IMG/VR virus record: IMGVR_UViG_3300030739_000009
Coordinates: 1 to 64,000 of that record
Direction: 5' to 3' (one strand)
DNA: 64,000 bases
DNA from: a virus
In this document: positions 16,278 through 58,667 of the stretch, piece after piece
Numbering within the stretch: position 1 is the stretch's first letter
How the letters are laid out: each line of letters starts with the position of its first letter
Made by a program: the position numbers and the translations under genes
Notes under the pieces: model-generated
Seen by the model: the letters and a program-made list of their open reading frames with translations, nothing else
Told to the model about the DNA's origin: nothing
The model's database searches: none

Positions 16278-17099
16278 TCAGGCGCCGGGTTCGGGCGGCG
16301 GCGGTTCGCCCATGACGTCCAGCAGCCGTTCGGGCAGCGAGTTGGGTCCGAGCAGCGGGTTGACGCAGGCGACGTTGCCGTCGAGCCAGCCGAACGGCAC
16401 CATGCCGTCGACCTCCAGCCACAGGGCGGTGCGGGCGAGGTCGATCGCGACGGGGTCGATGTCCATGCCGTAGACGCATTCGAACGTGACCATCGGCAGG
16501 ACCAGCGCGACCAGTTCGGGCGGTGCGCTGCCGTCGACGGTCAGCCTCGACACGTAGGCCTGCGAGATCTTCCGCGCCGCCTCGACCATGAACACCCCGG
16601 CGCCGCACGCCGGATCGACCGCCCGCAGCCGAAGAATCTGCTCCGGATCATCGGCTTTCAGGCACTGCCCGATCGCGACGTCCAGTGCGAACCGGGTCAT
16701 CTCCCGGGCGAGCGGCTGCGGCGTGTACCAGGAGCCCTGCACGTCCCGCTGCGACGTGCCCGCAGGCTTCGCGACCTCTAGCGTCCGGCCGTCGGTGACC
16801 AGGTGCAGGCGCAGCAGCTGCTGGTTGACGTCACCGAGGTCGTGGATCGTCCAGTCCGTGAGCTTCCCGACCGCATCCAACTCCCGCTCGGCTTCGGCGT
16901 CGCTGCAGTACGGCAGTTCCGGCCGGCGAAGTCCGCGGGCCTCAACCAGGCGGCAGATCAGGGACCTTACGGTGTGCTGGATTGCGTCCTGCCACAGCTG
17001 CGGACGGCCGCCGATGTGGTGGGCGGTCACGACGGCCGCGCGCATCGCCGCATCGACCACAGCGTCGGAGACGCGCACTGGCGTCTTGACGGCGCTCAT
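16278..17099 (-). CDS. Adenine-specific DNA methyltransferase-like protein lacking motif IV
   Basis: 273 residues from ATG 17099 (ATGA overlap). GSWYTPQPLAREMTRFALD is the pre-motif of type IIG/Eco57I-like N6-adenine methyltransferases. VDPACGAGVFMVEAAR is motif I (SAM binding), and GMDIDPVAIDLARTALWL is motif II/III. The chain then ends at about GNVACVNPLLGPNSLPERLL, where full-length homologues would continue to the catalytic NPPY motif. It can probably bind SAM but has no visible catalytic motif. It may be a truncated remnant, a regulatory derivative, or part of a split enzyme whose other half is elsewhere. Confidence 0.78.
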   Translation of the reverse strand: MSAVKTPVRVSDAVVDAAMRAAVVTAHHIGGRPQLWQDAIQHTVRSLICRLVEARGLRRPELPYCSDAEAERELDAVGKLTDWTIHDLGDVNQQLLRLHLVTDGRTLEVAKPAGTSQRDVQGSWYTPQPLAREMTRFALDVAIGQCLKADDPEQILRLRAVDPACGAGVFMVEAARKISQAYVSRLTVDGSAPPELVALVLPMVTFECVYGMDIDPVAIDLARTALWLEVDGMVPFGWLDGNVACVNPLLGPNSLPERLLDVMGEPPPPEPGA

Positions 17100-18247
17100 G
17101 ACGCGTCCGGGGCCGGATGGCGGGTGCCGTTCAGCAGCCGGTACAGGTACGGGTCGCGGACACCGAACTCCAACGCCATGGCCTTCACCGACTCGCCAGC
17201 CTCCTTGCGTGCGCGGATCGCGGCGAGCTGCGAGACGGTGATGCGGGTCCGGGGCTTCGCGCCGTTCGCCCGGCTGCGTTCCCGGGCGTGCGTGCTCGCG
17301 GCCTGCGTGCACGGCCCGCAGCGGCAGGCGTGGTTGGAGTACGTCGACGCCTTCCCGTGCACAAGGTCGCGCTGAGGACGACCCGCGCGTCGCAGCACGG
17401 CACCGGTCGCGGGACGGCGCCTCGACGCCGCTGGAGCGGTTGCCGAGCGGGAGCCGACGCGCCGGTCCGTACCCCAGACCCGGGACGGCTTCTCGCCCTC
17501 ATGCCACCACAGCAGGAACCTCTGCCGCGCCTTGGAAATCAAGACGTTGAACGTTCCACCGGTAACACCGAGGGCGCCCGCGGCCTGCTGGTAGTCGCCG
17601 GTCGCAGCGAGGGCTGTCAGCGCCTCCTGCTGGCGCAGGGTGAGCTGCGGCCAGATCTGGTGCAGGGCCGCGCGCTCGACGACGCCGCGTTCCGGGGACT
17701 GCGGCAGGATCGGGTTCCAGTACATGGCGTAGCGCGGCATGCCGTCGCCGTAGCTGCTTGTGGACCGGCCGTGGGTACGCATGCCGTCCTTGACGAGAGC
17801 GTCGGAGGCGGCGATGCCGACCCAGAACAGGTCACCGCCCGTCGGCGCCACCTCGGCTTGCAGGATGTGCTGGACCAGCGCGAACCAGACGGCGTCGCGG
17901 CGTTCCTCGACGTCTCCGGCGAGGTGCCAGCGGTCGCGCTTGAGGATCGTGTTGGTGAGTCGGTTGAGGTCGTTGAGGGTCCAGTCGTGCATCGGATCTC
18001 GGTGGTTGTCGGGTGGGGCGTCGGGTTGCTGGTCCTCGACGGCTACGGAGAATTCGCCGACGAGGCTGGTTCCGAGCCGGATCTCGCCGCGGTCGCCGTC
18101 GAGGGTGACGCCGACCGAGCGGGATCCGAGGATGGCGCGGGCGTGGTGGTGGACGGCCTCGGCGAGTTGCTCCGGAGTGGCGGCTTCGGTGTGCAGCGGG
18201 CGGACGTGCCGGTCGCTGCCGATGTGGTCGAACGTGATTGTGGGCAT
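17096..18247 (-). CDS. Sigma-like/HTH protein with zinc motif and second HTH
   Basis: 383 residues. The first 85 residues are a separate small domain; a possible internal start at 17992 would omit it. The middle contains a sigma region 4-like HTH (LTLRQQEALTALAATGDYQQ then AAGALGVTGGTFNVLISKA). Then comes HGKASTYSNHACRCGPCTQA, the zinc motif also seen at 415-828, and a final HTH (ESVKAMALEFGVRDPYLYRL). Likely a transcription regulator acting on phage promoters. Overlaps the methyltransferase-like gene by ATGA. Confidence 0.8.
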   Translation of the reverse strand: MPTITFDHIGSDRHVRPLHTEAATPEQLAEAVHHHARAILGSRSVGVTLDGDRGEIRLGTSLVGEFSVAVEDQQPDAPPDNHRDPMHDWTLNDLNRLTNTILKRDRWHLAGDVEERRDAVWFALVQHILQAEVAPTGGDLFWVGIAASDALVKDGMRTHGRSTSSYGDGMPRYAMYWNPILPQSPERGVVERAALHQIWPQLTLRQQEALTALAATGDYQQAAGALGVTGGTFNVLISKARQRFLLWWHEGEKPSRVWGTDRRVGSRSATAPAASRRRPATGAVLRRAGRPQRDLVHGKASTYSNHACRCGPCTQAASTHARERSRANGAKPRTRITVSQLAAIRARKEAGESVKAMALEFGVRDPYLYRLLNGTRHPAPDAS

Positions 18248-19507: not shown

Positions 19508-19882
19508 TCAGCTCACCGTCAGTTCCAGCACGTCGCCCATGTCCGCGAAGACATGCCACTGAGTGAAGCCCTCGGTCGTACCCACGCCCGTGATCACGTG
19601 GTCGATCAGTTCCGGGTGCAGCAGGAACGCCTCAAGTTCGGTGTAGGCGCAGCAGTCGTCCGTGTCGACGAGGAACACCCGCTTGCCGCTGTCCAGCGTC
19701 AGGGCAGTGCCGGTGGAGGTGCGCCAGCTGCGGGCGGACTCGGGGACCTGGACGTCCTTCTCGACGCTCACGATCCGGTGGCCGACGACCGCGTTGGCGA
19801 GCACGGCGACGTTCTCCGGCATGGTGCCGTTGTCGTCGTCCTCGTGCAGCGTCTCGGGCTCGTAGTTCAGCTTGTCGGTCAC
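19508..19882 (-). CDS. DUF7448-like protein, apparently ended early by TGA
   Basis: 124 residues from GTG 19882 (GGGAGAAC upstream). VVGHRIVSVEKD, TALTLDSGKRVFLVDTDDCC and FADMGDVLELTV form a beta-rich phage protein like DUF7448. It stops with LELTVS-TGA, but the same frame continues with a family-like C-terminus (see 19442-19507). A single TGG to TGA change, recoding, or a sequencing error would explain this. Function of the family is unknown. Confidence 0.72.
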   Translation of the reverse strand: MTDKLNYEPETLHEDDDNGTMPENVAVLANAVVGHRIVSVEKDVQVPESARSWRTSTGTALTLDSGKRVFLVDTDDCCAYTELEAFLLHPELIDHVITGVGTTEGFTQWHVFADMGDVLELTVS

Positions 19883-19936: not shown

Positions 19937-20680
19937 TCAGGTCGGCAGGTCGATGGCGAGGACTTCCGGGTGCCGGTAGGTGACACGGTCCAACTCGATG
20001 CGGACCTCGACTTGCTGGCGGTCCAGGCGGCGCAGCACCAGCAGAGTGCGGCAGAAGTCGGTCATGATCCCGCCGGGCGAGTTCACGCCGGCCCAGTCGA
20101 GGATGCGCCGACTCAGGTCGGGCTCGCGCTCGGTGGTGGTCGTGTACAGGCAGGGCACGTCCACGCCGTTGGGGCTGACATCGATCTCGTGGGCGCAGCG
20201 CTCGATCTCGTCGAACCGCCGGTCGCCTACGGGGCGCTCCTCGAGCCGGAGCCGCTCGTATCGCTCGATCACGATGAGCACGGGCCGGACCCCAGCGCGG
20301 ACGAGCCGCCTCACCGCCGCGTTGACATGCTCCGGGGTGAGCATCATCTCCGGTTCGACGTGCAGCCGTTCGGGCATCGGGTCAGGCGGGAAACTGGTGC
20401 ACAGCAGAACATGGCCCTGAGTCTCGGCGACGTGGATCGCGATGCGGCGGCCGACGGTGGCTTCGCGGGTTCCGCGCTGCGCGACGATGCCGACACGGCG
20501 GCGCTCCTCGAGCCCTACGAGGTCGTCGAGGTCAGGCCACGGGGTCTTGAGGTGCGTCACCCGTCCGGACTGCAGATCCTCAAGCCACGGCTCATACCGG
20601 TCAGCCACGGAGCCGACGTGCGGGGCGTCTCCACCGGGTTCTTTCACTTCTTTCACTGCCTTCGAGGAGTTGGGTAACAC
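19937..20680 (-). CDS. Degenerate DnaB/RecA-fold paralogue
   Basis: 247 residues from GTG 20680, four bases after the dnaB stop. It follows the DnaB core in order. TPWPDLDDLVG corresponds to the T-G-F-x-D-L-D-x-L-T-G entry; VGIVAQRGTREATVGRRIAI sits where Walker A should be; GHVLLCTSFPP corresponds to V-A-F-F-S-L-E-M; and RPVLIVIERYERLR corresponds to the Walker B stretch. The Walker A Lys is replaced by Glu and the Walker B Asp by Glu, so ATP hydrolysis is unlikely. The next gene upstream encodes an intact DnaB. It may be a structural or regulatory partner of DnaB. The fold alignment was done by eye. Confidence 0.65.
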   Translation of the reverse strand: MLPNSSKAVKEVKEPGGDAPHVGSVADRYEPWLEDLQSGRVTHLKTPWPDLDDLVGLEERRRVGIVAQRGTREATVGRRIAIHVAETQGHVLLCTSFPPDPMPERLHVEPEMMLTPEHVNAAVRRLVRAGVRPVLIVIERYERLRLEERPVGDRRFDEIERCAHEIDVSPNGVDVPCLYTTTTEREPDLSRRILDWAGVNSPGGIMTDFCRTLLVLRRLDRQQVEVRIELDRVTYRHPEVLAIDLPT

Positions 20681-20683
20681 GGG

Positions 20684-22045
20684 TCAGCCCTGCGCCATGT
20701 CGACGAACCGGCTGTAGTGGCCCTGGAATGCGGTCGTGATCGTCGAGGTCGGGCCCGACCGGTTCTTGGCGACAATGAAGTCGGCCTCGCCCGCGCGCTC
20801 GTGCTCCGGCTCGTAGGAGTCGGGTCGGTGGAGCAGCAGAATCAGGTCCGAGTCCTGCTCGAGCGCCCCCGACTCGCGAAGGTCCGACGCGACGGGCCGC
20901 CTGTCCGTACGCTGCTCCGGGCCACGGTTCAGCTGCGAGAGCGCGATCACCGGGAGCTTGAGCTCCTTCGCGAGGAGCTTCACCGACCTCGAGATCTCCG
21001 AGACTTCCTGCTGCCGCGACTCGTACCGCTGGCCGCCGCCGGAGCGCAGCAGCTGCATGTAGTCGATGACGATGAGCTTCAGGTCCTGCTCGGAGGCCAT
21101 CTGACGGGCCTTCGTGCGGATCGAGGTGAGCGTCAGGTCCGGCGAGTCGTCGAGGTATAGCGGCGAACTGGTGATCCGCGCGACTGTCCGGCCCATGCGC
21201 TCCCGGTCCTCCGGGGTCAGCGCACCCTTCGTCTGCAGGTGGTGGTGGGCGATCCGCCCCTCGGCGGAGATCAGCCGCTTGAGGATGTCGGTGCAGGACA
21301 TCTCGAGACTGAAGAACGCCACACCCATCTGGTGATTGATCGCGGCGCAGCGGGCGACGTCGAGACCGAACGTGCTCTTGCCCTGCCCCGGACGCCCGGC
21401 CACGATCACCATCTGTCCCGGGTGCAGGCCGCCTGTGAGCGCGTCCAGGTCGGCGAACCCGGTCGGCACGCCTGCGGGCCCGATGCCGAGCTGGACGGCT
21501 TCGATGTCCTCGAGCGCAGCGGGGAACAGCGCGCCGATCGGCAGCAGGCCGCTGGCCGACTCGGCGTCGGGCATTCCTGCGGCCTCGAGGATGCGGTCCT
21601 GGATCGCCTCGATCGTCCCGGCAGTGTCGCCCTGCCCGCTGTCGATCTCCTGCAGGCCCTGGTAGAGCGCGACGACGAGGCGGCGCTTGCGGGCCTTCTC
21701 CCGGATGATCTGCGCATACCACTCGGCGCTGCCGGGAGTGGGGCAGCCGACGATCAGGCCGTGGAGGTAGACCGGGCCGCCGCAGCGCACCAGCTGGCCG
21801 GCCTTCTCGAGGTCGTCGGCGACGGTGATGGGGTCGGCCGGCTCGCCTGCCGCATACAGGTCGATGATCGTGTCGTGGATCGTCTCGTGTGCCGGGCGGT
21901 AGTACTCGCCGCCTTTCAGGCCGGACCCGAGGACCTCCGGGATGGCCTCCTTCGCGCAGAGCATCGCGCCGAGGACCGCGCGCTCGGCGAGGAGGTCTTG
22001 AGGCGGGGTGCGCTCGAGGGTCGGGCTTTCGGTGTGGTCGGTCAT
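20684..22045 (-). CDS. dnaB: Replicative DNA helicase DnaB
   Basis: 453 residues, the usual DnaB length. The N-terminal domain starts PQDLLAERAVLGAMLCAKEA. The RecA core has AGRPGQGKST (Walker A, about residues 216-225), VAFFSLEMS, KLIVIDYMQLL (Walker B), SQLNRGPEQR and a C-terminal FIVAKNRSGPT (arginine finger region). Hexameric 5'-3' helicase for the element's replication fork. ATGA overlap with the initiator gene upstream, so the initiator and helicase are made together. No separate loader is visible. Confidence 0.95.
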   Translation of the reverse strand: MTDHTESPTLERTPPQDLLAERAVLGAMLCAKEAIPEVLGSGLKGGEYYRPAHETIHDTIIDLYAAGEPADPITVADDLEKAGQLVRCGGPVYLHGLIVGCPTPGSAEWYAQIIREKARKRRLVVALYQGLQEIDSGQGDTAGTIEAIQDRILEAAGMPDAESASGLLPIGALFPAALEDIEAVQLGIGPAGVPTGFADLDALTGGLHPGQMVIVAGRPGQGKSTFGLDVARCAAINHQMGVAFFSLEMSCTDILKRLISAEGRIAHHHLQTKGALTPEDRERMGRTVARITSSPLYLDDSPDLTLTSIRTKARQMASEQDLKLIVIDYMQLLRSGGGQRYESRQQEVSEISRSVKLLAKELKLPVIALSQLNRGPEQRTDRRPVASDLRESGALEQDSDLILLLHRPDSYEPEHERAGEADFIVAKNRSGPTSTITTAFQGHYSRFVDMAQG

Positions 22046-22941
22046 GGTCGGGTTCCGTTCTGGCGTCGGGCTCGGGCGCGGCCGGTCTTGTGGCAGATGG
22101 AGCAGAAGTCGATGTCGCCGTTGGGCAGGGTGACCATGTGCGTCACCGGGTCGCAGTCCGGGTTGTTGCAGCGGGGCTCGCCGGGTTCTTCGCTTCGAAT
22201 GGGCGGGAGTTTGTCGGTGAGGCGCGTGCGGACGAGTCCGGCCGGGTTGCCGATCTGCATCGGCAGTCCGGCGGTGAGCGCCTGCTCGAGTTGCGATTCG
22301 GATGCTCGCTCGAGCCACGGGACGACGAGTGGTACGAGCTTGGTGATCTCTTTCTCGCCGAGGGCGAGCCGTGAGTGGCGGCTGATGATCCGGGCGAGCA
22401 TGTCGTGCGCTGTCTGCTGTTGCAGCGAAGCGTCTCCCCCGCCCGCCCGCCCAGTTGCCTGCTCCTCCTGCGACCCGCGCGATTCGTGGGAGGTGGGTGG
22501 TTGAGGTGTCTGGGGAGTAGGGGGGGCTTTTTTCGCCCGCCTACTTGGCGGATTACGCCCCCCTACGCCGTCCGTAGGGGGGCTTTTTTCGGTCGACGGG
22601 CCCGCTGGCTCATCGCCGGCCCCGTCTGCGTAGGGGGGCGTTTTACGCCCGTCTACTTCATCGCTCAGATCAAGGAACCGGAACTTGAGGACCTTGCCGT
22701 TGTGGCCGCCTTCGTGCTTCTCGATCACCTTCTCGTTGAGGGGCACGCCGAGGACGCGGCGCATCTCACGGTCGGTCTTGATCATGCACATCTCCATGAT
22801 TGCGGCGTCGTAGGGGCTGTTCCAGGTGATCCAGGTCTTCTCGTCCGCGTCGTCAGCGAGCACCATCGCAACCAGCTTTTCCCGATGGGTCAGACCCGCC
22901 AGGGCATGCTTCTTGACGCTCCGGTAGACGTCGTGACCCAT
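22042..22941 (-). CDS. Replication initiator-like winged-helix protein
   Basis: 299 residues from ATG 22941. Residues 1-90 (ALAGLTHREKLVAMVLADDA then DAAIMEMCMIKTDREMRRVL) are a winged-helix domain like those of plasmid and phage replication proteins. Residues 96-142 are a Pro/Gly/Lys-rich linker encoded by the iteron-like repeats at 22517-22656. Residues 175-240 are helical, and the C-terminus has a zinc ribbon (RCNNPDC ... DFCSICH). Its position directly upstream of dnaB, and the repeats inside its own gene, parallel lambda O. Likely binds the origin and recruits DnaB. Confidence 0.8.
   Translation of the reverse strand: MGHDVYRSVKKHALAGLTHREKLVAMVLADDADEKTWITWNSPYDAAIMEMCMIKTDREMRRVLGVPLNEKVIEKHEGGHNGKVLKFRFLDLSDEVDGRKTPPYADGAGDEPAGPSTEKSPPTDGVGGRNPPSRRAKKAPPTPQTPQPPTSHESRGSQEEQATGRAGGGDASLQQQTAHDMLARIISRHSRLALGEKEITKLVPLVVPWLERASESQLEQALTAGLPMQIGNPAGLVRTRLTDKLPPIRSEEPGEPRCNNPDCDPVTHMVTLPNGDIDFCSICHKTGRARARRQNGTRP
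22517..22656. repeat. Iteron-like G/T-tract repeats inside the initiator gene: candidate replication origin
   Basis: Three direct copies of GTAGGGGGG(G)C followed by a T run start at 22517, 22574 and 22630, about 57 bases apart. An inverted copy is at 22551-22566, so ACGCCCCCCTAC and GTAGGGGGGC form a perfect 10-bp dyad. Copies 1 and 3 are each followed by a weaker inverted half (CGCCCGCCTAC, ACGCCCGTCTAC). Six-T runs next to six-G runs are rare in this DNA. The protein meaning is only a low-complexity linker, so selection on DNA is plausible. Candidate binding sites for the initiator encoded here. Confidence 0.6.
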
Positions 22942-23042
22942 CAGCCCACCGCCGGGCGGCACGCGTCAGAGCAGTACGGGGTCACGCGGATCTCCAACTG
23001 GCGCACAGGTACAGGGCGGTGCTTCTTCTTGCTCGTCGGCAA
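22941..23042 (-). CDS. Tiny basic Cys-containing protein
   Basis: 33 residues from TTG 23042, two codons after the repressor stop. Its TGA overlaps the initiator's ATG (TGATG). Reads MPTSKKKHRPVPVRQLEIRV then TPYCSDACRPAVG; the C...C pair and the basic start resemble short actinobacterial zinc peptides. Coupling at the downstream end supports it; the weak ribosome site argues for caution. Confidence 0.5.
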   Translation of the reverse strand: MPTSKKKHRPVPVRQLEIRVTPYCSDACRPAVG

Positions 23043-25104: not shown

Positions 25105-25135
25105 AAGGCCCCGGCCATCCCGGCCGGGGCCTTTT
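25105..25135 (+). terminator. Strong rho-independent terminator
   Basis: GGCCCCGGCC (25107-25116) and GGCCGGGGCC (25122-25131) form a perfect 10-bp stem with a 5-base loop, followed by TTTT and preceded by AA. Insulates the gene before it from the toxin-antitoxin unit. Confidence 0.85.
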
Positions 25136-25167
25136 GCATGCCGTGCTCCGGTGCGTGCGCAGAACGG

Positions 25168-25205
25168 TTGGACAGGATCGTCCTACTTTCCTACTCTTAG
25201 AAAGT
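25168..25205 (+). promoter_or_regulatory. Promoter with operator dyad of the toxin-antitoxin unit
   Basis: TTGGAC (25168-25173), 18 bases, TACTCT (25192-25197). The dyad ACTTTC (25185-25190) / GAAAGT (25200-25205) brackets the -10 box, a fitting site for autoregulation by the AbrB-type antitoxin. Confidence 0.6.
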
Positions 25206-25265
25206 TGGAAATCCGGGTACTGTGGTAGTGAACGCAGACAGCGACCACAGACCCAGGAAGCACTC

Positions 25266-25577
25266 ATGCCGACCCGCGACCGCACCAAGCCGCACCGGCT
25301 CCGCGCGCGCCTCCGCGCAAAGGGCCAGGTGACACTACCCGCACCCATCCGGGAAGCCCTACACATCGACACCGGGGACGACATCGCATTCGAGGTCATC
25401 GACGGCCAGGTCATACTGCGAGGCCTCCGCGCCATGCCAGCAGACCAGGCATGGTTCTGGACCCCCGAATGGCAGGCCGGCGAGCAGGAGGCCGACGACG
25501 AGATCGCCAACGGCGAGGGCACCGTCTACAAGAGCGCCGACGCGATGTTCGACGCATTGGAGAACGAGAGCGACTGA
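25266..25577 (+). CDS. AbrB/MazE-type antitoxin
   Basis: 103 residues from ATG 25266 (AGGAAG upstream). The N-terminus RLRAKGQVTLPAPIREALHI then TGDDIAFEVIDGQVIL is a clear SpoVT-AbrB swapped-hairpin DNA-binding domain. The acidic C-terminal tail (EQEADDEIANGEG) would bind the toxin. It lies three bases upstream of a RelE-like gene. Confidence 0.88.
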   Translation: MPTRDRTKPHRLRARLRAKGQVTLPAPIREALHIDTGDDIAFEVIDGQVILRGLRAMPADQAWFWTPEWQAGEQEADDEIANGEGTVYKSADAMFDALENESD

Positions 25578-25580
25578 CCC

Positions 25581-25877
25581 GTGCCAACGTTCGAGAAGCT
25601 CCCGCGCTTCCAGAAGGACTGGAAGACGCTCGAACCTGACCTGCAGGTCAGGTTCAGGGACAAGGTGAAGAAAGAGTTCGTCCCAGCGATCAACGAAGGC
25701 TTCCCGTATCCCGGCGGCCTGCGCATGAAGGGCATCCAGGGTGCCACCGGCATCTGGGAGATGACCTGGGCACCCAACGGCCGCGCGACGTGGCAGTTCG
25801 GCGAGGAGATAACGAAGGGTGACCCGCACGTCATCTGGCGGCGGATCGGCAACCACGAGATCTTCAACTTGCCGTAG
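25581..25877 (+). CDS. RelE/ParE-superfamily toxin
   Basis: 98 residues from GTG 25581. KLPRFQKDWKTLEPDLQVRF, GLRMKGIQGATGIWEMTWAP and VIWRRIGNHEIF follow the RelE/ParE order: helical hairpin, then R-M-K...G-I-W-E, then strand with R-I-G-x-H. It likely acts as an mRNA interferase or gyrase poison, countered by the AbrB-type protein upstream. Pairing an AbrB antitoxin with a RelE-type toxin is known but less usual than MazE-MazF. Might stabilise the plasmid state. Confidence 0.8.
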   Translation: MPTFEKLPRFQKDWKTLEPDLQVRFRDKVKKEFVPAINEGFPYPGGLRMKGIQGATGIWEMTWAPNGRATWQFGEEITKGDPHVIWRRIGNHEIFNLP

Positions 25878-27669: not shown

Positions 27670-28644
27670 GTGAAAGTCACCACCCTGCCCATCCGCCAGA
27701 TCCGCATCGGCGAACGAGCCCGCCAAGATCTCGGCGACCTCACCATGCTGGTCGACTCGATCCGTGACCGCGGACTCCTGCAGCCGATCGTCGTGCGCCC
27801 GGACGGCGACGGCTACACGCTCGTCGCCGGAGGCCGGCGCATCGAAGCGCACCACCTCCTCGGCCACGACCAGATCCCGGCGCACATCGCCGAGTCGCTC
27901 GCCGACGAGCTCGAGGCCCTGCATGCCGAGGACGATGAGAACACCTGCCGGAAGAACTTCACGCCCACCGAGGCGGTCCGTCATGCGGACCGCGTGCGGT
28001 CGGTCCTGCAGTCGCAGGCGAAGGAGCGCATGGCTGCGGCCGGCCGGAAGGCGGCACCCAACCGCCCGGCGGCAACGGAAAGGGTGGGAAACTTGCCCAC
28101 CCTTTTCCTCGAGCCCGAGACCGCAGAGGAAGCCCCCGCGGCGTCCGATTCGGAGTCGATCGCCACTCCGAAGACTCGAGTGCGGGATCAGGAGGCCAGG
28201 GGCAGCGGCCTCTCCGGTCGCACGCTCGAGAAGGCCCGGCATGTCGTCCAGGCCGCCAGGGATCCCGAGGCCCCGGCTCCCGTCCGCGCAGCGGCGCTCG
28301 AGGCGCAACGCGTCATGGACCGCACCGGCAAGATCGACCCCGCCTTCAAGAAGGTCGTCCAGGCCGAGACTGCGGTTCTGACCGCGCCCGTGGCCGAGTA
28401 TCTCGAGGCCTCCGGCGGTGCCGACGAGCTCCGACTCCTCAAGTGGCGCGCGGCCTTCCAGAAGGAACTGGCGAAGGGCTTCGGCCTGATGGGGATGTTC
28501 CGCCCCGAGCAGGTGGCCTCGAGTGCCGACGAGGACGGAATGAACGAACTCCGAACCATGGCTGCCAGGTTGACGACCTATGTGGAGCAGATCGATTCCC
28601 TGCGGGAGCGTCCCGCCGGGCTGTCACTGATCGTTGGAGGTTGA
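27670..28644 (+). CDS. ParB-like partition/nuclease-fold protein
   Basis: 324 residues from GTG 27670. The N-terminal ParB/Srx domain is clear: LPIRQIRIGERARQDLGDLT, IRDRGLLQPIVVRP, YTLVAGGRRIEAHHLLG. KNFTPTEAVRHADRV follows, as in ParB/KorB proteins. The C-terminal half is helical. No parA is visible beside it. It may bind centromere-like sites for plasmid maintenance or act as a regulator. The gene and its downstream partner are unusually rich in CTCGAG. Confidence 0.85.
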   Translation: MKVTTLPIRQIRIGERARQDLGDLTMLVDSIRDRGLLQPIVVRPDGDGYTLVAGGRRIEAHHLLGHDQIPAHIAESLADELEALHAEDDENTCRKNFTPTEAVRHADRVRSVLQSQAKERMAAAGRKAAPNRPAATERVGNLPTLFLEPETAEEAPAASDSESIATPKTRVRDQEARGSGLSGRTLEKARHVVQAARDPEAPAPVRAAALEAQRVMDRTGKIDPAFKKVVQAETAVLTAPVAEYLEASGGADELRLLKWRAAFQKELAKGFGLMGMFRPEQVASSADEDGMNELRTMAARLTTYVEQIDSLRERPAGLSLIVGG

Positions 28645-31641: not shown

Positions 31642-33000
31642 GTGACCGACCCTCTCGACCAGCCGTGGCAGGACCTTCGCAGCATCCTCGCTGCGCCTGT
31701 CGACGCGCCCGAGAAGGCCCCGGCTCGACCCCCTCTCACGCGAGCCCAGAAGTGGCTCGTCGGCATGGTCTCCGGATTCGTCACGATCATCGCTGGCATC
31801 GGCTTCGCCGGGTCGTACACCGCAGTCACGAAGCTCGCCGCAGCCAAGGGCTTCGGCTGGTTCGCCTGGGCGTTCCCCGCCGGCGTCGACTCTGGCATCG
31901 GCGGGTTCCTCGCCCTGGACCTGCTCCTCACGTGGCTGCGGATCCCGTACCCGCTGCTGCGTCAGATCGCCTGGTGCCTGACCGCCGCGACGATCTGCTT
32001 CAACGCGTCCTCGGCCTGGCCCGACCCGCTCGCCGTCGGCATGCACGCCACCATCCCGCTGCTCTTCATCGCCGCCGTCGAAGGCGCCCGACACGCAGTC
32101 GGTCGGATCGCGGACATCACCGCCGACCAGCACATGGAGTCGCCGCCGCTGATCCGCTGGATCATCGCGCCGTGGCCGACGTTCCGGATCTGGCGACGAA
32201 TGCGACTGTGGCACCTGCCGTCCTACACCGCAGTTATCGAGCAGCAGAAGGAACTGAAGATCTACCGCGCCAGACTCCGCAGCGACTACGGGCGCCGTTG
32301 GCGTCGGGACGCGCCTGCGGACAGGTTGCTCGTCTTCGAGCTGGCTCACTTCGGGACTTCGGTTTCGGATGCCCTCGCGGCACCCGAAGCGGAAGCCGAA
32401 GCGCATCGCGCGGCCGAAGTTGAGCGGCGGGCCGAAGCCCTGCGGCAGGCAGAGGCCGAAACCGAAGCCGCCCGCGAAGCCGAAGAGCGCCAGCGGGCCG
32501 AAGCCGAAGCGCGGCGGATCTCCGAAGCCGAAGCCGAAGCAAAGCTCGCCGGGATCGCCCGCGCGCAGAGAATCGCCGACGCCGAAACCGAAGCCCGCAT
32601 CGCCGCAGTCGAAGCCGAGCGGCACCGTGCCTTCCAGGCGCAGCAGGCCCAGGAAGCCGAAGCGAAGTTGCAGCGCGAACAGGAGATGCTTCGCGTCGCC
32701 CAGGAGCGCAGTCGCCTCGAAGCCGAAGCGGCGAAGCCGAAACCGAAACGGGGAGCCGAAGCGGCCCGAAGCCCGAAGCCGAAGCCGACGCCCGGAGCCG
32801 AAGCGAAATCGAAGCCCGCGGCCATCGGCGGCAAACGCACCCAGGTGGAAACCGAAGTCGAAGCCGTCCTCGCGCTCATCCAGACCGACGGCTATGACGC
32901 CGTCGGCCTGGAGCGTGTGAAGGCCGACTTCGGGTTGAAGCACGCCGCCGCCTACGACCGGCTACTCAAAGCCCGTGACCGCTACCGCAAGAGCGCCTGA
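31642..33000 (+). CDS. DUF2637 SpdA-like membrane protein with long Glu/Ala coiled coil
   Basis: 452 residues, GTG start. Residues 33-160 contain four TM segments (GMVSGFVTIIAGIGFAGSYT; FAWAFPAGVDSGIGGFLALD) with the G-x-D-x-G/A-L-D-L pattern of DUF2637, found in spread proteins of Streptomyces conjugative plasmids. Residues 245-395 are an A-E-A-E-rich coiled coil. The last 60 residues (TQVETEVEAVLALIQTDGYD) look like a winged-helix DNA-binding domain. It would sit at the hyphal membrane and help intramycelial spread. The coiled-coil coding DNA holds the CCGAAGC array. Confidence 0.85.
   Translation: MTDPLDQPWQDLRSILAAPVDAPEKAPARPPLTRAQKWLVGMVSGFVTIIAGIGFAGSYTAVTKLAAAKGFGWFAWAFPAGVDSGIGGFLALDLLLTWLRIPYPLLRQIAWCLTAATICFNASSAWPDPLAVGMHATIPLLFIAAVEGARHAVGRIADITADQHMESPPLIRWIIAPWPTFRIWRRMRLWHLPSYTAVIEQQKELKIYRARLRSDYGRRWRRDAPADRLLVFELAHFGTSVSDALAAPEAEAEAHRAAEVERRAEALRQAEAETEAAREAEERQRAEAEARRISEAEAEAKLAGIARAQRIADAETEARIAAVEAERHRAFQAQQAQEAEAKLQREQEMLRVAQERSRLEAEAAKPKPKRGAEAARSPKPKPTPGAEAKSKPAAIGGKRTQVETEVEAVLALIQTDGYDAVGLERVKADFGLKHAAAYDRLLKARDRYRKSA
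32384..32804 (+). repeat. Array of 17 CCGAAGC heptamers, all one orientation
   Basis: CCGAAGC begins at 32384, 32396, 32432, 32462, 32498, 32504, 32522, 32528, 32534, 32588, 32657, 32723, 32756, 32766, 32773, 32779 and 32798. Fourteen copies are in one reading frame (Ala-Glu-Ala), one is in the second and two are in the third (Pro-Lys-Pro, Ala-Arg-Ser), so the DNA word persists where the protein changes. Glu is 24 GAA to 6 GAG here. Oriented short repeats are what FtsK/TraB motors read. Confidence 0.8.
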
Positions 33001-35247: not shown

Positions 35248-35616
35248 ATGGCAATCACCTACCGTGAGCTGCTGCGTGAGGCGCGGGCCCTGGCCTCGGA
35301 CGTGCGCCGCGCCACCGCCGCCCACAAGAAGATCGCGACCGCGATGAACGACCACGCCAAGGACACCGGCCGTGTCGCCGAACAGATCTCGACCCTTCAC
35401 GTCGACACCGCCACGGTTGCCGAGACCCGCGAGGTCGCCCGCATCATGCAGGGCCTGTCCACCGCCGCGATCGCCTACGCCAACGCCGCCGACGAGGCAT
35501 CCCGGGTCGCGGCGGCCGCCGAGCGGGAGACCGTCGCCACGCACGGCGGCATCAAGGAAGCCGCCGACCGGTCCCCCGCCCCCATGGCCGCCCGCGGCTG
35601 GTACACGCAGGATTGA
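35248..35616 (+). CDS. Hypothetical helical protein upstream of TraB/FtsK
   Basis: 122 residues, all helical. Its final segment ATHGGIKEAADRSPAP mirrors the end of the upstream protein (TRHGGIYRAVVDSPLT), so the two share a C-terminal module: both have T-x-H-G-G-I followed 6-8 residues later by D-S/R-P. It may bind the same partner, perhaps the translocase. TGATG coupling to the motor gene. Confidence 0.7.
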   Translation: MAITYRELLREARALASDVRRATAAHKKIATAMNDHAKDTGRVAEQISTLHVDTATVAETREVARIMQGLSTAAIAYANAADEASRVAAAAERETVATHGGIKEAADRSPAPMAARGWYTQD

Positions 35617-37883
35617 TGATGGCCACCAACGAGACCGCGCCTGCCGCCGTGCACATGCCGAACCCGCGCGCGGAGAAGCGCTTCGCCATCGCCCAGGTCG
35701 CCGCACCACTGGCAACGGCCCTCACCATGCCGCTGCTGGACACCTCGGCCGCGAGCACCGTCAGCATCCTCCTCGCCGTCCCCGCGCTCGCCGCCGGCGC
35801 GAACTTCATGCGGCTGCTGCCCGACGACGCCCTGGACGCCATGCCCGGCGGCGACGTGCTGCGCGCCCACCGGCAACCGTTCCTCGTCTCGGCGATCGCG
35901 ACCGCCACGGCAGCAGCAACAGCGACCTTGAACGGCTGGCCCGGCATCGACGCCCTGGCCGCCGGATGGATGGCACTGCCGTCGGTATCCGGGCTGGTCT
36001 CGCTGGCGTGGTGGGGCGCGACCGGGCATGTCGCGTTCTCGCTGCGCCGCGTCCTGCGCGGCCACCACCACGCCGCCGCCTACCAGGCACCCGCCAGCCC
36101 CGGGCCAGCCGCGCCCCCGACGCCTGGCGATGACGTCCTGATGCCCTGGCACATTCACATCTCCCGCGAGGACGGCGCCCACCCCGGCAACCACCTCACC
36201 CTGACCGGCCGCAGCCCCGAGGCGTGGGAGGGCACGATCGAGGCCGAGCCGGGCCGCCCGGTGTCCGTGACCGCCGAGACCGTGTCCGGCGTCTACCGCA
36301 TTCCCATCGAGCAGGTCCTCATCACCGAGGGCCCGCACACCAGTGCCCGCCGCATCCTGGTCCACATGGTTGCCCCCGTCGTTGACGAACCCCAGTACAG
36401 CGCCCTGGACGCACTGTGGCTGCGCCGGGTGGGTCACCGGGGCGGCTGCATGCCCGGCACCCACCTCGAAGGCACCGTGCCCGACCCGGCGACCGGGGGT
36501 GTCGCAGCGTGGATCGTCGCCGACGAGGACACCGATGCCATCACCATGCCCGACGCCTGGCGCATCGCCGGGGCACTGCGCACCACCACCCTGCTGGCAT
36601 CGGTCGAGGCGACCCGCAACCCCCGCCGGGCCAAACTGCGGCTCATGGACCGCTCGCCACTCGAAGAGGGCATGCCCCTGCCCGGCCCGGCCGCCCTGGT
36701 CGCCAACAGGAACGGCTACGTGGAACTGGGCACCGGGATCTCCGGCCGCCCCGCTCGCATCCAGCTCTACGACGACAAGGGCGGCGCCCGCCACGTCCTG
36801 GGCGCAGGCGTCACCGGCTCCGGCAAGGGCGGCGTCCTGCAACTCCTCGGCCTGAGCTACCACGTCAACGGCGTCGCGATCATCTACGCCGACCCGAAGG
36901 GCTCCTCCAACCCCGACGTCGAGGACATGGCCGCCTACCCCGGCTGCGGCATCGACGGCGCGATGGGTGCGCTGCGCCTGGCCTATGCGATCCTTCTGCA
37001 CCGCGTCGCACAGTCCCAGCGGCTGAGGATGAAGAACTTCCAGGCCACTGCGGAGCGCCCGTTCGTGGCCGTCATCCTGGACGAGTTCGCGCAGCTGCTC
37101 GGCGACAAGGCGATCAACCGGGCCGAGGCCGGGTTCATCGTCGCCGCTATCGCCGAGCAGGGCCGCTCGCTCGGCATGTGCCTGGTCCTGTTCGGGCAGA
37201 TCATCAACCTGGACAAGATGGCCGGGGACACGGCGATCCGCGACAACGTGTTCTACGGCGGTGCTCTGATCCTGCTGCGCTCCGACGGCGCGCAGAAGAA
37301 CCGCGTCGACCTGCCCGACAGCTTCGAGGGCGTCGACCCGTCCAAGATCCCGGCGTTCTGGGCGAGTGACGACGAGTCCCTGATCTACGACCCGGACATG
37401 CCCGAGGACGACCCGCGCCGTACCTTCGGCGTCGGCTACGTCGTCGGCCCCGACGAGCGCGCCGAGATGATGCGCGCCTGGATCCTGGAATCCGCGGCCG
37501 GCCACTTCGACCCCGAGCGCATCACGATCCCGGCGGACTTCCCCGACTGGGATGACCGCGACGAGATCGCCCTGGTCTCCGTCGGCCCGGCTGCCGAGGA
37601 CGAGGAGGACGGCACGTCGAAGTGGGCACCCGCCCGGCCGGGCCCCGTTCTCGCCAAGGAACCGACCGCGCAGGAGAAGATCCTCCGTGTCCTCGCCGAG
37701 CGCCGCGACCCCCTCGACTTGGACGTCGGCTATCTGCATCTGGACCAGATCACCGAGATGACCGGCGTGGCCCGTAAGACTGTCGAGAACACCCTCAGCC
37801 GCCTCGCCAAGGACGGGGCTGTCACCCGCAACCCCGGTGCCGGTGGCGAGTACGGACTGCCCGTCACCGGAGGCGAATCATGA
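35616..37883 (+). CDS. TraB/FtsK-type DNA translocase
   Basis: 755 residues from ATG 35616 (35619 also possible). N-terminal hydrophobic region (residues 25-140, about four TM segments) anchors it. The motor has GAGVTGSGKGGVLQLLGL (Walker A near residue 396), AIIYADPKGSSNPDVEDMA, FVAVILDEFAQLLGD (Walker B near 484) and AAIAEQGRSLGMCLVLFGQI. The C-terminus (TAQEKILRVLAERRDPLDLD to VENTLSRLAKDGAVTRNPGA) is a winged helix like TraB/FtsK gamma. In Streptomyces one such hexameric pump moves double-stranded plasmid DNA between hyphae. It could also partition or package DNA. Overlaps the Mrr-like gene by ATGA. Confidence 0.9.
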   Translation: MMATNETAPAAVHMPNPRAEKRFAIAQVAAPLATALTMPLLDTSAASTVSILLAVPALAAGANFMRLLPDDALDAMPGGDVLRAHRQPFLVSAIATATAAATATLNGWPGIDALAAGWMALPSVSGLVSLAWWGATGHVAFSLRRVLRGHHHAAAYQAPASPGPAAPPTPGDDVLMPWHIHISREDGAHPGNHLTLTGRSPEAWEGTIEAEPGRPVSVTAETVSGVYRIPIEQVLITEGPHTSARRILVHMVAPVVDEPQYSALDALWLRRVGHRGGCMPGTHLEGTVPDPATGGVAAWIVADEDTDAITMPDAWRIAGALRTTTLLASVEATRNPRRAKLRLMDRSPLEEGMPLPGPAALVANRNGYVELGTGISGRPARIQLYDDKGGARHVLGAGVTGSGKGGVLQLLGLSYHVNGVAIIYADPKGSSNPDVEDMAAYPGCGIDGAMGALRLAYAILLHRVAQSQRLRMKNFQATAERPFVAVILDEFAQLLGDKAINRAEAGFIVAAIAEQGRSLGMCLVLFGQIINLDKMAGDTAIRDNVFYGGALILLRSDGAQKNRVDLPDSFEGVDPSKIPAFWASDDESLIYDPDMPEDDPRRTFGVGYVVGPDERAEMMRAWILESAAGHFDPERITIPADFPDWDDRDEIALVSVGPAAEDEEDGTSKWAPARPGPVLAKEPTAQEKILRVLAERRDPLDLDVGYLHLDQITEMTGVARKTVENTLSRLAKDGAVTRNPGAGGEYGLPVTGGES

Positions 37884-54531: not shown

Positions 54532-57069
54532 ATGACCGCCACCATGGACTGGGCCGAGTACGCGGCCCGGGAGTTCGAGAAGCCCGACACGCTGACGGTG
54601 CTGGGCTTCGAACCGGTCTGCAAGCCGCGGGTCCTCGCCCGACTGGCCGGGACCCCCGAGGCCGACTTGCCGCCGATGTGCGGGACTTGCCCGCAGGAGC
54701 GGTTCCTTGCCCTGCCCGACGAAGACCTCGACGTGCTCTACGGCGGGGCTGGCGGCGGCGGCAAGTCCCAGAGCTTGCTGGCCCTGGTCATCCGCACCTG
54801 CGTCCGCTTCCCCGGCATCCAGATCTTCTGGTTCCGCAAGACGTTCCCGCAGCTGAACCAGTCGGTGCTGCGGAACCTGGCGCGATACAACTACGCCAAG
54901 GCGGTCGGCGGAATCTGGAACGGCTCGAAGTACGAGCTGCGGTTCCCCGGCAACTCGATCCTGACGTTCGCGCACGCGAAGAACATGGAAGAGGCCGCCG
55001 CGCTCAGTAGCGCGGAGATCAACATGCTCGTCATCGATGAGCGCACCACGATGCCGCCTGAAGTCGTGGACTTCCTCTACACGCGCATCCGCTCCGGCGT
55101 CGAAGGCGTGCCCTGCCTCGGCGCACGCTCCGCCAGCAACCCCGGCCACATCGGGCACGGCGTCGTCAAGGACGACTACGTCGACGCCACCGACTACGGC
55201 ACCAAGGAGATCGTCGACAGGGCCGGGCGGCGCCGGATCTTCATCCCCGCGAAGGCGTCCGACAATCCGTACGTCGGCGACTACGAGAAGAGCCTCGAAG
55301 GCATCGCTGACCCGGACCTGCGTGCACGCATCAAGGACGGGGACTGGTCCGCGATGCCTGACGCCGCGTTCCCGGACTGGAAGCGCGACCGGATCGTCGT
55401 CCCGCCGTGCGAGCTGCCCGCATCGTGGCAGCGGCGCGGCGGCATGGACTACGGCTGGGCAGCGCCGTCGGTGTACCTGGCCGCGGCGAAGGACGGCGAC
55501 GGGCGGCTGTGGTTCTACCGCGAGCTGACGATGGTCCAGACACCGGAGCGCGAGCAGGCCCGGCAGATCCTCGACGCCAACGCCGGCCATCATGTGCTGG
55601 CGATCGCGGCCGACCCCGCCATGTGGGGCAAGACGGGGTCCTCGCTCCCGCCGGCCGATCAGATGGCGACCGAGGGCCTGCACCTGACGAAGGCCGACAC
55701 CGACCGGCTCGGCGGCAAGGCCCGCATGCACACCTACCTCGCCGAAGCGCCAGCGTGCGCCTACCACCGCGAACTCGGTTGGGCGACCTGCCCGCTGCTG
55801 CATATCCTCGACGGCGCCTGCCCGCAGTTCACGAAGACCATGGGCGAGCTGCCGCGCGATCCGCACCGGCCGGAGGACGTCGACACCGATGGCCCAGACC
55901 ATTGGTACGACGCCTGCTTCGTTGCCGGGACGCTGATCTCCACGAGCCGCGGCGACGTCCCCATCGAGGACGTCCGCGTCGGCGACGAAGTGATGACCCG
56001 ACAGGGGTGGCGACGGGTGCGCGACTCAGCTCGCACTGGCATTGCGCAGCCCGTACTCAAGGTCTCAATGAGCAACGGACGCGAGCTGATTGGAACCGGG
56101 AATCATCCCGTCTTCGTGCAGGGGGAAGGCTTCGTTCGGCTCGATTCCCTGAGATACCTTGATAGAATTCAGACATGCCACGCAAGCGCCCAAGGGTTGA
56201 ATCTGTCGTCTTCAACGGCATCACTTTCCGCCGCTATCCGGACGCCAAGCGCAGAACTGAACAGGTCTACTTCACGCCAGGCGGGAGTCATCGCGCGCGC
56301 GGCGTCGGCCGCCTCCATCAGGAAATCTGGAAGGCTGCACACGGCCCGATACCCGAGGGCTTCGATACCCATCATCGGGACCACGATCCAGACAACAACT
56401 CGATCGACAATCTCGTCTGTGTGCCCAACGAGGTCCACCGCTCTCATCACGGGGATCAGCCGCGGAGCGATGCTCAGCGCACGGCATGGGCGGCTAACCA
56501 GCAGCTGGCCGCAGAATGGCACCGCAGCGACGAGGGGCGTGCCTGGCACTCCGAGAACGGAAGGCGAGCTTGGATCGGGCGCGAGCCGCGCACGCTGGCG
56601 TGCGCGCATTGCGGCGAGGTGTTCGAAACTACCGACCGCAACGAATCGACGCGGTTTTGTTCTGGGAAGTGCCGCGCCTATGCCCGAAAGGCGAGCGGAA
56701 TCGACGACGTGGACCGCACGTGCGAGGGCTGCGGCGAGACGTTCCGCATCAATCGCTACGCCTCGACCCGAAATTGCTCCCGCGCATGTTCTTGGACTGT
56801 CCGACGCCGGACGGGCTGACGTATACAACCTTTCCGTCGAAGACGTCGAGGAGTACTTCGCCAACGGCGTCCTGGTGCACAACTGCCGCTACCTGATCAT
56901 GTCGATCGGTGGTGAGTCCCGCTGGCACTTCCCTGGCGAAGAGCCTGAGACAACCCACGTCGACCCGCAGGCCCAACCCGCGGTCACCGTTCCTCTCCCT
57001 CCGGCGCAGCTGCCGACGAGCTTCGGCGGTTTCCCCGTCGCGACGGGGGGCGGTGGACCGTGGGGCTAG
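54532..57069 (+). CDS. terL: Large terminase subunit (TerL) interrupted by an intein
   Basis: 845 codons; 522 residues after splicing. ATPase: GGAGGGGKSQSL (Walker A, residues 71-82), QIFWFRKTFPQL, INMLVIDERTTMPPE (Walker B and catalytic Glu). Nuclease: GGMDYGWAAPS (motif I Asp), VLAIAADPAMWGKTGSS (motif II Asp), DGPDHWYDA (motif III Asp). The intein (codons 462-784) splits motif III exactly after DA, so the extein junction is DA/CRYLIM. TerL cuts and pumps DNA into the prohead; without splicing, motif III is broken. Ends in overlap with the portal gene. Confidence 0.93.
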   Translation: MTATMDWAEYAAREFEKPDTLTVLGFEPVCKPRVLARLAGTPEADLPPMCGTCPQERFLALPDEDLDVLYGGAGGGGKSQSLLALVIRTCVRFPGIQIFWFRKTFPQLNQSVLRNLARYNYAKAVGGIWNGSKYELRFPGNSILTFAHAKNMEEAAALSSAEINMLVIDERTTMPPEVVDFLYTRIRSGVEGVPCLGARSASNPGHIGHGVVKDDYVDATDYGTKEIVDRAGRRRIFIPAKASDNPYVGDYEKSLEGIADPDLRARIKDGDWSAMPDAAFPDWKRDRIVVPPCELPASWQRRGGMDYGWAAPSVYLAAAKDGDGRLWFYRELTMVQTPEREQARQILDANAGHHVLAIAADPAMWGKTGSSLPPADQMATEGLHLTKADTDRLGGKARMHTYLAEAPACAYHRELGWATCPLLHILDGACPQFTKTMGELPRDPHRPEDVDTDGPDHWYDACFVAGTLISTSRGDVPIEDVRVGDEVMTRQGWRRVRDSARTGIAQPVLKVSMSNGRELIGTGNHPVFVQGEGFVRLDSLRYLDRIQTCHASAQGLNLSSSTASLSAAIRTPSAELNRSTSRQAGVIARAASAASIRKSGRLHTARYPRASIPIIGTTIQTTTRSTISSVCPTRSTALITGISRGAMLSARHGRLTSSWPQNGTAATRGVPGTPRTEGELGSGASRARWRARIAARCSKLPTATNRRGFVLGSAAPMPERRAESTTWTARARAAARRSASIATPRPEIAPAHVLGLSDAGRADVYNLSVEDVEEYFANGVLVHNCRYLIMSIGGESRWHFPGEEPETTHVDPQAQPAVTVPLPPAQLPTSFGGFPVATGGGGPWG
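55915..56883 (+). mobile_element. Intein in TerL, with its middle overprinted by an HNH gene
   Basis: 323 codons. Block A: CFVAGTLISTSRGDVPIEDV (Cys1 at codon 462). Block B: GTGNHPVFVQGEGFV (the N-x-H). Block F: DVYNLSVEDVEEYFANG. Block G: GVLVHN, ending in His-Asn before Cys+1. All splicing residues are present. Between codons about 547 and 755 the terL frame is only a Ser/Ala/Arg-rich stretch without domain features, while another frame of the same DNA encodes an HNH protein. It therefore works as a mini-intein with a long filler. Confidence 0.9.
56175..56819 (+). CDS. HNH endonuclease nested in the intein in a different frame
   Basis: 214 residues from ATG 56175, two bases shifted from the terL frame. 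RYPDAKRRTEQVYFTPGGSH, HQEIWKAAHGPIPEGFDTHH, RDHDPDNNSIDNLVCVPNEV and HRSHHG form a complete HNH domain of the HNH_3 type (E/D-HH-x-D-x-D-x-x-N-N-x-x-x-N-L...H-x-x-x-H). Two zinc fingers follow (CAHCGEVFE...RFCSGKC and CEGCGETFR...NCSRAC). The A/T-rich TTGATAGAATTC before the ATG may carry a promoter or start site. Likely the homing endonuclease of the intein or of itself. Confidence 0.88.
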   Translation: MPRKRPRVESVVFNGITFRRYPDAKRRTEQVYFTPGGSHRARGVGRLHQEIWKAAHGPIPEGFDTHHRDHDPDNNSIDNLVCVPNEVHRSHHGDQPRSDAQRTAWAANQQLAAEWHRSDEGRAWHSENGRRAWIGREPRTLACAHCGEVFETTDRNESTRFCSGKCRAYARKASGIDDVDRTCEGCGETFRINRYASTRNCSRACSWTVRRRTG

Positions 57070-58667
57070 GAGCACGTATCCGCGATGCCTTCCGCCGGAC
57101 CCCGGTAGCCGAGGCCGCCCCGGCCGGTCCGTCGGCTTCGGCTGCGGCGGGCGCGCAGCGTATCGGCTACGAGTACGGCACGGCGCTCATGCCGACGACG
57201 TCGCGCACCGCGGCAGCGTACAGCCAGGAACGCCAGCAGGTCATGACGCAGCTGTACCAGGCGTACCTGACGTGCCCGTGGGTGGCCGCGCCGATCGATC
57301 TGATCGCACGCACGGTCACTGCGGGCGGCCTGCAGGTGGTGTCGGATGCGCTGTCGGACGACGGGACAGTGCCGCCGGACACGCCCGAGGTGACACGGCT
57401 GCGCCGCCTGATGCGGTATGTGAACCCGCGCCAGGACATGGTGCAGCTCCTGCGGTCCGCTGTGATCGACCTGAACTTGTTCGGGGACGCGTACATCGAG
57501 ATCGTGACGCTGCTGGGCGAGCCGGTCGCGCTGTACACCCTGGACTCGACGACGATGACGGTCGTCGCGGACGCGCACGGCGAGGTCACCGGGTACATCC
57601 AGGTTGTGGACGGCCTGGGCGGCACGCGGACGGCCGAGTTCACTCCGGAGCAGGTCATCCACATCTCGCTGGACGCGCCGCGGGGTGGCTCCTACGGGGT
57701 GGGTCCGACGCAGAAGGCACTGCTGCCGGTGACGGCGTGGCTGTTCACCGAAGCGACGATCAAGGAGTGTTTCCGCCGGGGCGACCCGCCGCGGATCCAC
57801 GTCGACCTCGGGCACCTGTCCGACACTGAGGTGCAGCGGTGGCGCGAGCAGTACATGGTCTTCAATCTGGGGCCGAAGGCGGTCGGCAACCCCACGATCA
57901 CGACCGGCGACGGCAAGGTCGAGGTCCTGGACCCGCGCAAGGTCACCGACTACCTGGCCGCCAGCAAGCAACTGCGCGACGAGATCATCGCCACGTTTGG
58001 TGTCCCGCCGGGCAAGCTGGGGATCATCGAGTCCGGCAACCTGGGCGGCGGCACTGGGGAGTCTCAGGACAAAACGCTGCGAATCAACACCATCATCCCG
58101 GTGCAGTCCCTCGTCCTGGAGAAGATCAACTTTCATCTGCTGCAGCAGGGCTTCGGCATCGAGGACTGGCACCTCGAATTCCCCGAGATCGACTACCGCG
58201 ACTCGACGACCGTTGAGAACATCCGCGACACCCGCCTGCGCAACGGCTCCTACACCCTGAACCGCGTCCGCGACGAGATCGGCGAACCCCCCGTCGACGG
58301 CGGCGACGACCCGGTCCTGGTCGACCGCCAGAACCTCGTCAAGTGGTCCGACATGGACGCCATGTCCAAGGCCGGCATTGCCATGAAGCTCAAGGGCACC
58401 TCCCTGGAGCCCGACGCCCCGACACCCGGCACCCCGGTGACGCTCAGCAAGCCGGATCCCGTTGAGCCGCCCGTTGTCCAGCCCGTCCCGTTCGACGCGT
58501 CGCCGCTCGGCCCCGAGGACGGCCCCGGCCTGGCCGGCGACCTGCCGCAAGGCACGGGGCCCCGCGAGAGCCTCGACGAGGAATGGCGGCGCACCTACCG
58601 GGCGCGCCGCACCCAGGCCCTCGCCGAACTCCCGCCTGCCCGCGAACTCGTAGGAGCAGGGAGGTGA
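57060..58667 (+). CDS. Portal protein
   Basis: 535 residues from GTG 57060, inside the terL end. VAAPIDLIARTVTAGGLQVV, NPRQDMVQLLRSAVIDLNLF then GDAYIEIV, and EIIATFGVPPGKLGIIESGN follow the order of HK97-type portals (core helix, G-x-A-Y/F, then I-A-x-x-F-G-V-P-P-x-x-L). Forms the dodecameric DNA channel of the head. C-terminal 130 residues are Pro-rich and probably flexible. Confidence 0.92.
   Translation: MGLGARIRDAFRRTPVAEAAPAGPSASAAAGAQRIGYEYGTALMPTTSRTAAAYSQERQQVMTQLYQAYLTCPWVAAPIDLIARTVTAGGLQVVSDALSDDGTVPPDTPEVTRLRRLMRYVNPRQDMVQLLRSAVIDLNLFGDAYIEIVTLLGEPVALYTLDSTTMTVVADAHGEVTGYIQVVDGLGGTRTAEFTPEQVIHISLDAPRGGSYGVGPTQKALLPVTAWLFTEATIKECFRRGDPPRIHVDLGHLSDTEVQRWREQYMVFNLGPKAVGNPTITTGDGKVEVLDPRKVTDYLAASKQLRDEIIATFGVPPGKLGIIESGNLGGGTGESQDKTLRINTIIPVQSLVLEKINFHLLQQGFGIEDWHLEFPEIDYRDSTTVENIRDTRLRNGSYTLNRVRDEIGEPPVDGGDDPVLVDRQNLVKWSDMDAMSKAGIAMKLKGTSLEPDAPTPGTPVTLSKPDPVEPPVVQPVPFDASPLGPEDGPGLAGDLPQGTGPRESLDEEWRRTYRARRTQALAELPPARELVGAGR

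Follow-up and report, generated by a model that had tools for sequence, protein, structure and literature searches.

To our knowledge, the described loaders that open or recruit the replicative helicase DnaB have folds unrelated to its hexameric motor. RecA-fold paralogues that help to load or cap an active relative are represented by the RAD51 paralogues (BCDX2, RAD51C-XRCC3). The protein described here, termed pseudo-DnaB, resembles these in being a RecA-fold paralogue, and they are also among the structural matches of the second of its two models. As they belong to eukaryotic recombinase filaments and not to a hexameric helicase, the likeness is one of analogy only. In DnaB, the determinant or docking helix, which spans residues 291-302 in E. 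coli (PMC6391071) and contains W291 in VcDnaB (PMC9912922), packs with the linker helix of the neighbouring subunit, and DnaC, lambda P and DciA bind this linker/docking-helix module (PMC9912922). We propose that pseudo-DnaB targets this DnaB surface as well, and like these three it has its gene next to dnaB on a mobile replicon, but their folds are unrelated to its own, which derives from the helicase itself.

The gene lies in a stretch of 64,000 nucleotides (the window, meaning the whole of the DNA analysed) from a 76-kb virus contig that carries terminase, portal, tape measure and tail fibre genes in addition to ParB, DUF2637 and FtsK-like genes. The co-occurrence of ParB, DUF2637 and FtsK/SpoIIIE-like genes with terminase and portal was seen at window positions 27670-28644, 31642-33000, 35613-37883 and 54532-58667. 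In trees, the nearest rows to the window's dnaB are Streptomyces chromosomal DnaBs, the DNA-level matches of the window are Streptomyces and Kitasatospora plasmids, and an Amycolatopsis plasmid matches its portal; a search of the phage collection with this portal gave no match. From these neighbours and matches, together with the gene content, we take the contig for a phage-plasmid whose host is a Streptomyces-like actinomycete. The genes of interest are the following:

22042..22962, minus strand: ORF upstream of dnaB, product with a four-Cys tail
20684..22045, minus strand: dnaB, intact replicative helicase of 453 aa, ATG at 22045, stop ending at 20684 (Pfam and motifs)
19937..20680, minus strand: pseudo-DnaB (PSD), 247 aa, GTG start, linker-helix-like segment and degenerate RecA core (profiles, alignment and model)
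19508..19882, minus strand: next gene, on the same strand as pseudo-DnaB, DUF7448 protein (PF24240, 1.3e-12; phrog_2131, 1.3e-22)

The first of these shares 4 nt with the beginning of dnaB and the pseudo-DnaB ORF begins 3 nt past the dnaB stop, so that the three genes form a tight unit. The product of the upstream gene found no match in family searches; going by its position, it is probably the replication initiator. The dnaB product matches the Pfam DnaB N-terminal (6.7e-23) and DnaB_C (1.7e-93) domains and its motifs are canonical, GKST and VIDY both being present. No DciA was found in the window record, which may be a fragment. An earlier note on this DNA had placed a DnaB paralogue with dead motifs next to an intact dnaB, and ORF coordinates, profile homology and the Pfam domains of the neighbour all agree with this. 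Elsewhere in the window, an AbrB-like protein is followed by a RelE/ParE-like protein (25134-25877, recognized by eye), a possible toxin-antitoxin pair, and an N6-adenine methylase-like ORF with weak MmeI-type matches (16278-17312) perhaps encodes a partial methylase.

As a single sequence, pseudo-DnaB found no family match in Pfam or PHROGs, and BLASTP against the neighbouring DnaB gave an E-value of 0.09. An HMM built from 11 DnaBs (ten from plasmids and the window's own) matches it in colinear pieces with an E-value of 1.2e-6. When the PDB was searched with the profile of the pseudo-DnaB family, DnaB structures were the only matches at E ≤ 0.01 (best 1.6e-4), and a genome search with the same profile brings back true DnaBs. 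Four bridging members of the family (L009, L012, L045 and L046) score above the Pfam cut-off for the DnaB C-terminal domain (DnaB_C, PF03796), with which the family shares the linker region, the RecA fold and the strand order. With these members included, hhalign aligned the family profile with DnaB at 98.7% over 218 columns (E 3.6e-16); the narrow profile without them still gave 96.4% over 127 columns (E 1.1e-9), while reversed and shuffled DnaB profiles stayed at 0.04-0.5%. The apparent DnaB alignment thus withstood profile comparison. Two structure models were built. The first, from three sequences, reached a pLDDT of 45 and resembled other P-loop NTPases most among PDB entries (Z ≤ 6.8), which speaks neither for nor against a DnaB fold. 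A second one reached a pLDDT of 82 and superimposes on DnaB structures with a Z-score of 18.5 (rmsd 2.7, 189 residues aligned), but its alignment included DnaB cores, and its match to DnaB is therefore a fit and not an independent test. It is hardly in doubt that pseudo-DnaB is a DnaB homologue that has lost its motifs. The earlier description of a protein tracking the whole DnaB core from its entry motif onwards is borne out as regards colinearity; the path itself is broken by a deletion of ~55 residues. Phmmer matches to Pizza repeat proteins were discarded as a summed-repeat artefact, as no single stretch passes. A literature search for a DnaB paralogue or pseudo-DnaB, which covered few subscription papers, found nothing relevant.

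Compared with DnaB, pseudo-DnaB is devoid of the N-terminal domain, the Walker A Lys, the catalytic Glu, the ssDNA loop and the docking helix, and the clade to which the window's protein belongs is also without the Walker B Asp and the arginine finger. The sites concerned are:

20444..20482, minus strand: dead Walker A AQRGTREATVGRR, residues 67-79, in place of A.RP..GK[ST]T (alignment)
20249..20278, minus strand: dead Walker B LIVIERYERL, residues 135-144, Asp replaced by Glu (alignment)
20363..20401, minus strand: site of the ~55-residue deletion, around residues 94-106 (HMM pieces end at 241 and restart at 298)
20567..20608, minus strand: helix-like segment VADRYEPWLEDLQS, residues 25-38, putatively at the position of the DnaB linker helix (model and alignment register)

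The loss of the Walker A Lys and the Walker B Asp had been noted before and is confirmed by the alignment. GKST of DnaB aligns with a REAT/REAK stretch, which reads TREATVG in the window protein, and Asp has given way to Glu in VIERYERL. Within a 10-member alignment R72, E73, A74 and G77 are invariant, REAxxG replaces GK[ST] in 12 of the 15 aligned members, and ExxxG is kept in all 15, with PE where others have RE in L051, L052 and L053. Comparison with the viral/phage DnaBs L086 and L167 suggests a route that may have led from GDGKSVG to SREAKVG. The catalytic Glu following strand 2 (F-S-L-E-M) is lost in all members (LLCTS in the window protein), as is the DLRESG loop, where the window protein has AGVNSPGG. 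By alignment, it is onto DLRESG that the ssDNA-contacting DnaB residues R381/E382/G384 (G. stearothermophilus numbering, PMC6391071) map. The Walker B Asp, replaced in VIER of the window protein, and the arginine finger K-x-R, where IELDRVTY aligns with VAKxRxGP, are both gone in the window's clade; the L009 and L012 groups, seemingly at earlier stages of motif loss, retain them.

Two losses go beyond the Walker motifs noted first: the N-terminal domain and the ~55-residue stretch with the docking helix. A Pfam scan of pseudo-DnaB for the N-terminal domain PF00772 gave no match, and only ~40 residues precede the core. The deletion lies past the strand that has the catalytic Glu at its end and ahead of the strand that precedes Walker B, and it has removed the docking/determinant helix in 15 of 15 aligned members; the corresponding DnaB stretch, TDDDWTRLA, holds the conserved Trp equivalent to VcDnaB W291. 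What would be the linker helix is modelled at residues 25-37 with a pLDDT of about 60; most relatives appear to keep such a helix, which L004, L006 and L009 have shortened or lost. These features bear on the notion that pseudo-DnaB takes a place in the DnaB hexamer as a dead subunit, slowing the ring or changing its timing. Its RecA core is indeed kept, and members of a second truncated family described below could find a place in a ring, since they have the docking helix, the arginine finger and, in six of eight, the DLRESG loop. The window's family has neither docking helix nor ssDNA loop, and the window's clade no arginine finger either, so that it cannot close a ring as a normal subunit would. 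Having lost the ATPase site, the ssDNA loop and the docking helix, pseudo-DnaB cannot work as a ring subunit. The stable mixed rings considered in the earlier note are thus unlikely for this family, the helix that accepts the neighbour's linker helix being deleted throughout, though possible for the family with a Lys-to-Arg exchange; as an account of pseudo-DnaB, we regard mixed-ring regulation as improbable.

Relatives were found by tblastn of plasmids in Streptomyces and Kitasatospora, at some two dozen loci in all. About half of them are situated directly after dnaB (the window, L002, L003, L004, L010, L011/L049, L012 and L046), often with a DciA gene before dnaB; in L008 and L009 a single ORF intervenes. 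No dnaB is near the gene in L005, L006, L007, L014, L015, L045 and L051-L055; the L005 copy follows DciA and the solo copy of L006 adjoins parAB. DnaB_C matches are absent from the entire plasmid records of L005, L006 and L007, while in the records of L045 and L047 they come solely from pseudo-DnaB itself. DciA is present in 14 of 18 plasmid records and three of four viral records, a possible association. The family profile matched 22 of 393 sampled Streptomyces genomes, mostly as weak matches to true DnaBs. Neither the phage records nor IMG/VR scans with the window query or A1 yielded a relative, and the sole match of an IMG/VR scan with the L012 group (L086) proved to be a true DnaB. The pair, for which the earlier note suggested a look at related phages, recurs in related replicons, but not in phage records. 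In the branch of L012 (5701-6651), which includes L010, L045, L046, L053 and L054, an N-terminal domain with CxxC...H...C has been added, possibly a zinc finger, that gave no significant Pfam match. In L002, L003, L010 and L012, the live DnaBs beside pseudo-DnaB are atypical in the residues that follow Walker B (VVDD, AVDA, VIDA). They also carry Lys or Thr instead of a conserved Gln (SKLNR, STLNR); the DnaB of the window is canonical.

Because about half of the loci are without an adjacent dnaB, a target other than DnaB is possible. The RecA fold might have been repurposed without any tie to DnaB, for another partner or ligand, with the REAxxG loop as a new site, e.g., in partition or conjugation. 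The conservation of the altered loop itself and the solo copies beside parAB (L006) or other genes would fit this idea, which we nevertheless deem unlikely given the repeated position directly after dnaB and the same pairing with dnaB in other truncated DnaB-derived proteins. The plasmids of L005, L006 and L007, lacking a DnaB of their own, make the host helicase a plausible target. An inhibitor that binds host DnaB or its loader and switches off chromosome replication in favour of the phage-plasmid could exploit just this helicase, the only one available in these three cases. Most carriers, though, are plasmids that live with their host and would be harmed by a replication block, and the gene is usually part of a replication operon and adjoins a dnaB that belongs to the replicon; we give host inhibition little probability, but count it, like a repurposed fold, among the alternatives still in play.

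Complete copies of pseudo-DnaB are under purifying selection, dN/dS ranging from 0.07 to 0.37 among complete pairs of the window's family, which is in favour of a function. For the pair L002/L003 the ratio is 0.09 and does not exceed the value for their dnaB (dN 0.047, dS 0.32). Broken copies do exist: L008 and L047 are frameshifted, L085 is a remnant after dnaB, and the 2.1-kb tandem repeat of L004 (6710-11872) contains two extra truncated pseudo-DnaBs downstream of a complete copy. These could be taken as signs of a functionless, decaying duplicate, but the dN/dS values of the complete copies and the conservation of the replacement motif over a wide divergence make this very improbable. Together with relatives across Streptomyces plasmids, this argues that pseudo-DnaB is probably a helper or regulator of DnaB and not junk.

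The best explanation, for which we would claim slightly less than an even chance, is that pseudo-DnaB, a conserved pseudo-helicase, mimics a DnaB subunit on one side only, attaches to DnaB in this manner and adjusts its loading. It retains the RecA domain of DnaB and a linker-like segment in a gene of their own, the N-terminal domain, ATPase site, ssDNA loop and docking helix having been lost. The remaining RecA face and linker helix would bind DnaB, either the replicon's own or, where it has none, the host's, with the linker helix of pseudo-DnaB lying on the docking helix of a DnaB subunit. As pseudo-DnaB has no docking helix to accept the next subunit, the mimicry would be one-sided, and the protein might cap, crack or hold open the DnaB ring at the interface that DnaC, lambda P and DciA also exploit, with control of helicase loading at the replicon's origin as the likely outcome. 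Direct binding to DnaB appears slightly more likely than not. The role in loading is put forward tentatively; it would fit the placement of the gene in an initiator-(DciA)-dnaB unit. If true, a helicase-derived regulator that lacks exactly the loader-docking helix would represent a new control of the replicative ring.

The earlier note had called the protein a paralogue, and a recent copy of the adjacent dnaB was one conceivable source. Trees speak against it: the pseudo-DnaB family forms a single group (100/100) far from the window DnaB, which itself falls among Streptomyces DnaBs, and duplication of the neighbouring gene is disfavoured. A second truncated family occurs in Streptomyces mobile elements (L036/L083, L078-L081, L084 and the viral L088, L089 and L093) and is placed inside the Streptomyces DnaBs. 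Like pseudo-DnaB, its members have no N-terminal domain and an altered Walker A, and two (L036/L083 and L078) directly follow dnaB. Unlike pseudo-DnaB, they have only the Lys exchanged, invariantly for Arg, and retain the catalytic Glu, the Walker B Asp (VDG or IDG), the docking helix and the arginine finger, as well as the DLRESG loop in six of eight. On the viral contigs L088, L089 and L093, this protein is the only DnaB-like one, and DciA is also present. The trees place the two families apart, with long branches in play, and separate origins are favoured but not proven, since an AU test does not reject a joint clade (p 0.29, and 0.13 in a tree with one misframed row, TAN3_L108). A general scheme in which Streptomyces mobile replicons have repeatedly made of DnaB a non-catalytic, N-terminally truncated partner that controls DnaB rings by subunit mimicry, alone or with an element-encoded DciA and including host DnaB where the element has none (L005-L007; viral L088, L089 and L093), is conceivable but doubtful. 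Replicons in which DciA occurs together with a dead DnaB, whether or not a live one is present, provide natural test cases for the way DciA loads DnaB. On a further viral contig (L108, 3395-6791, record G399, with five DnaB_C matches in all), dnaB is followed by two tandem ORFs for DnaB C-terminal domains. The first has GPRTIPKFS at Walker A and the second keeps GKS; both fall beside the contig's own dnaB in the tree.
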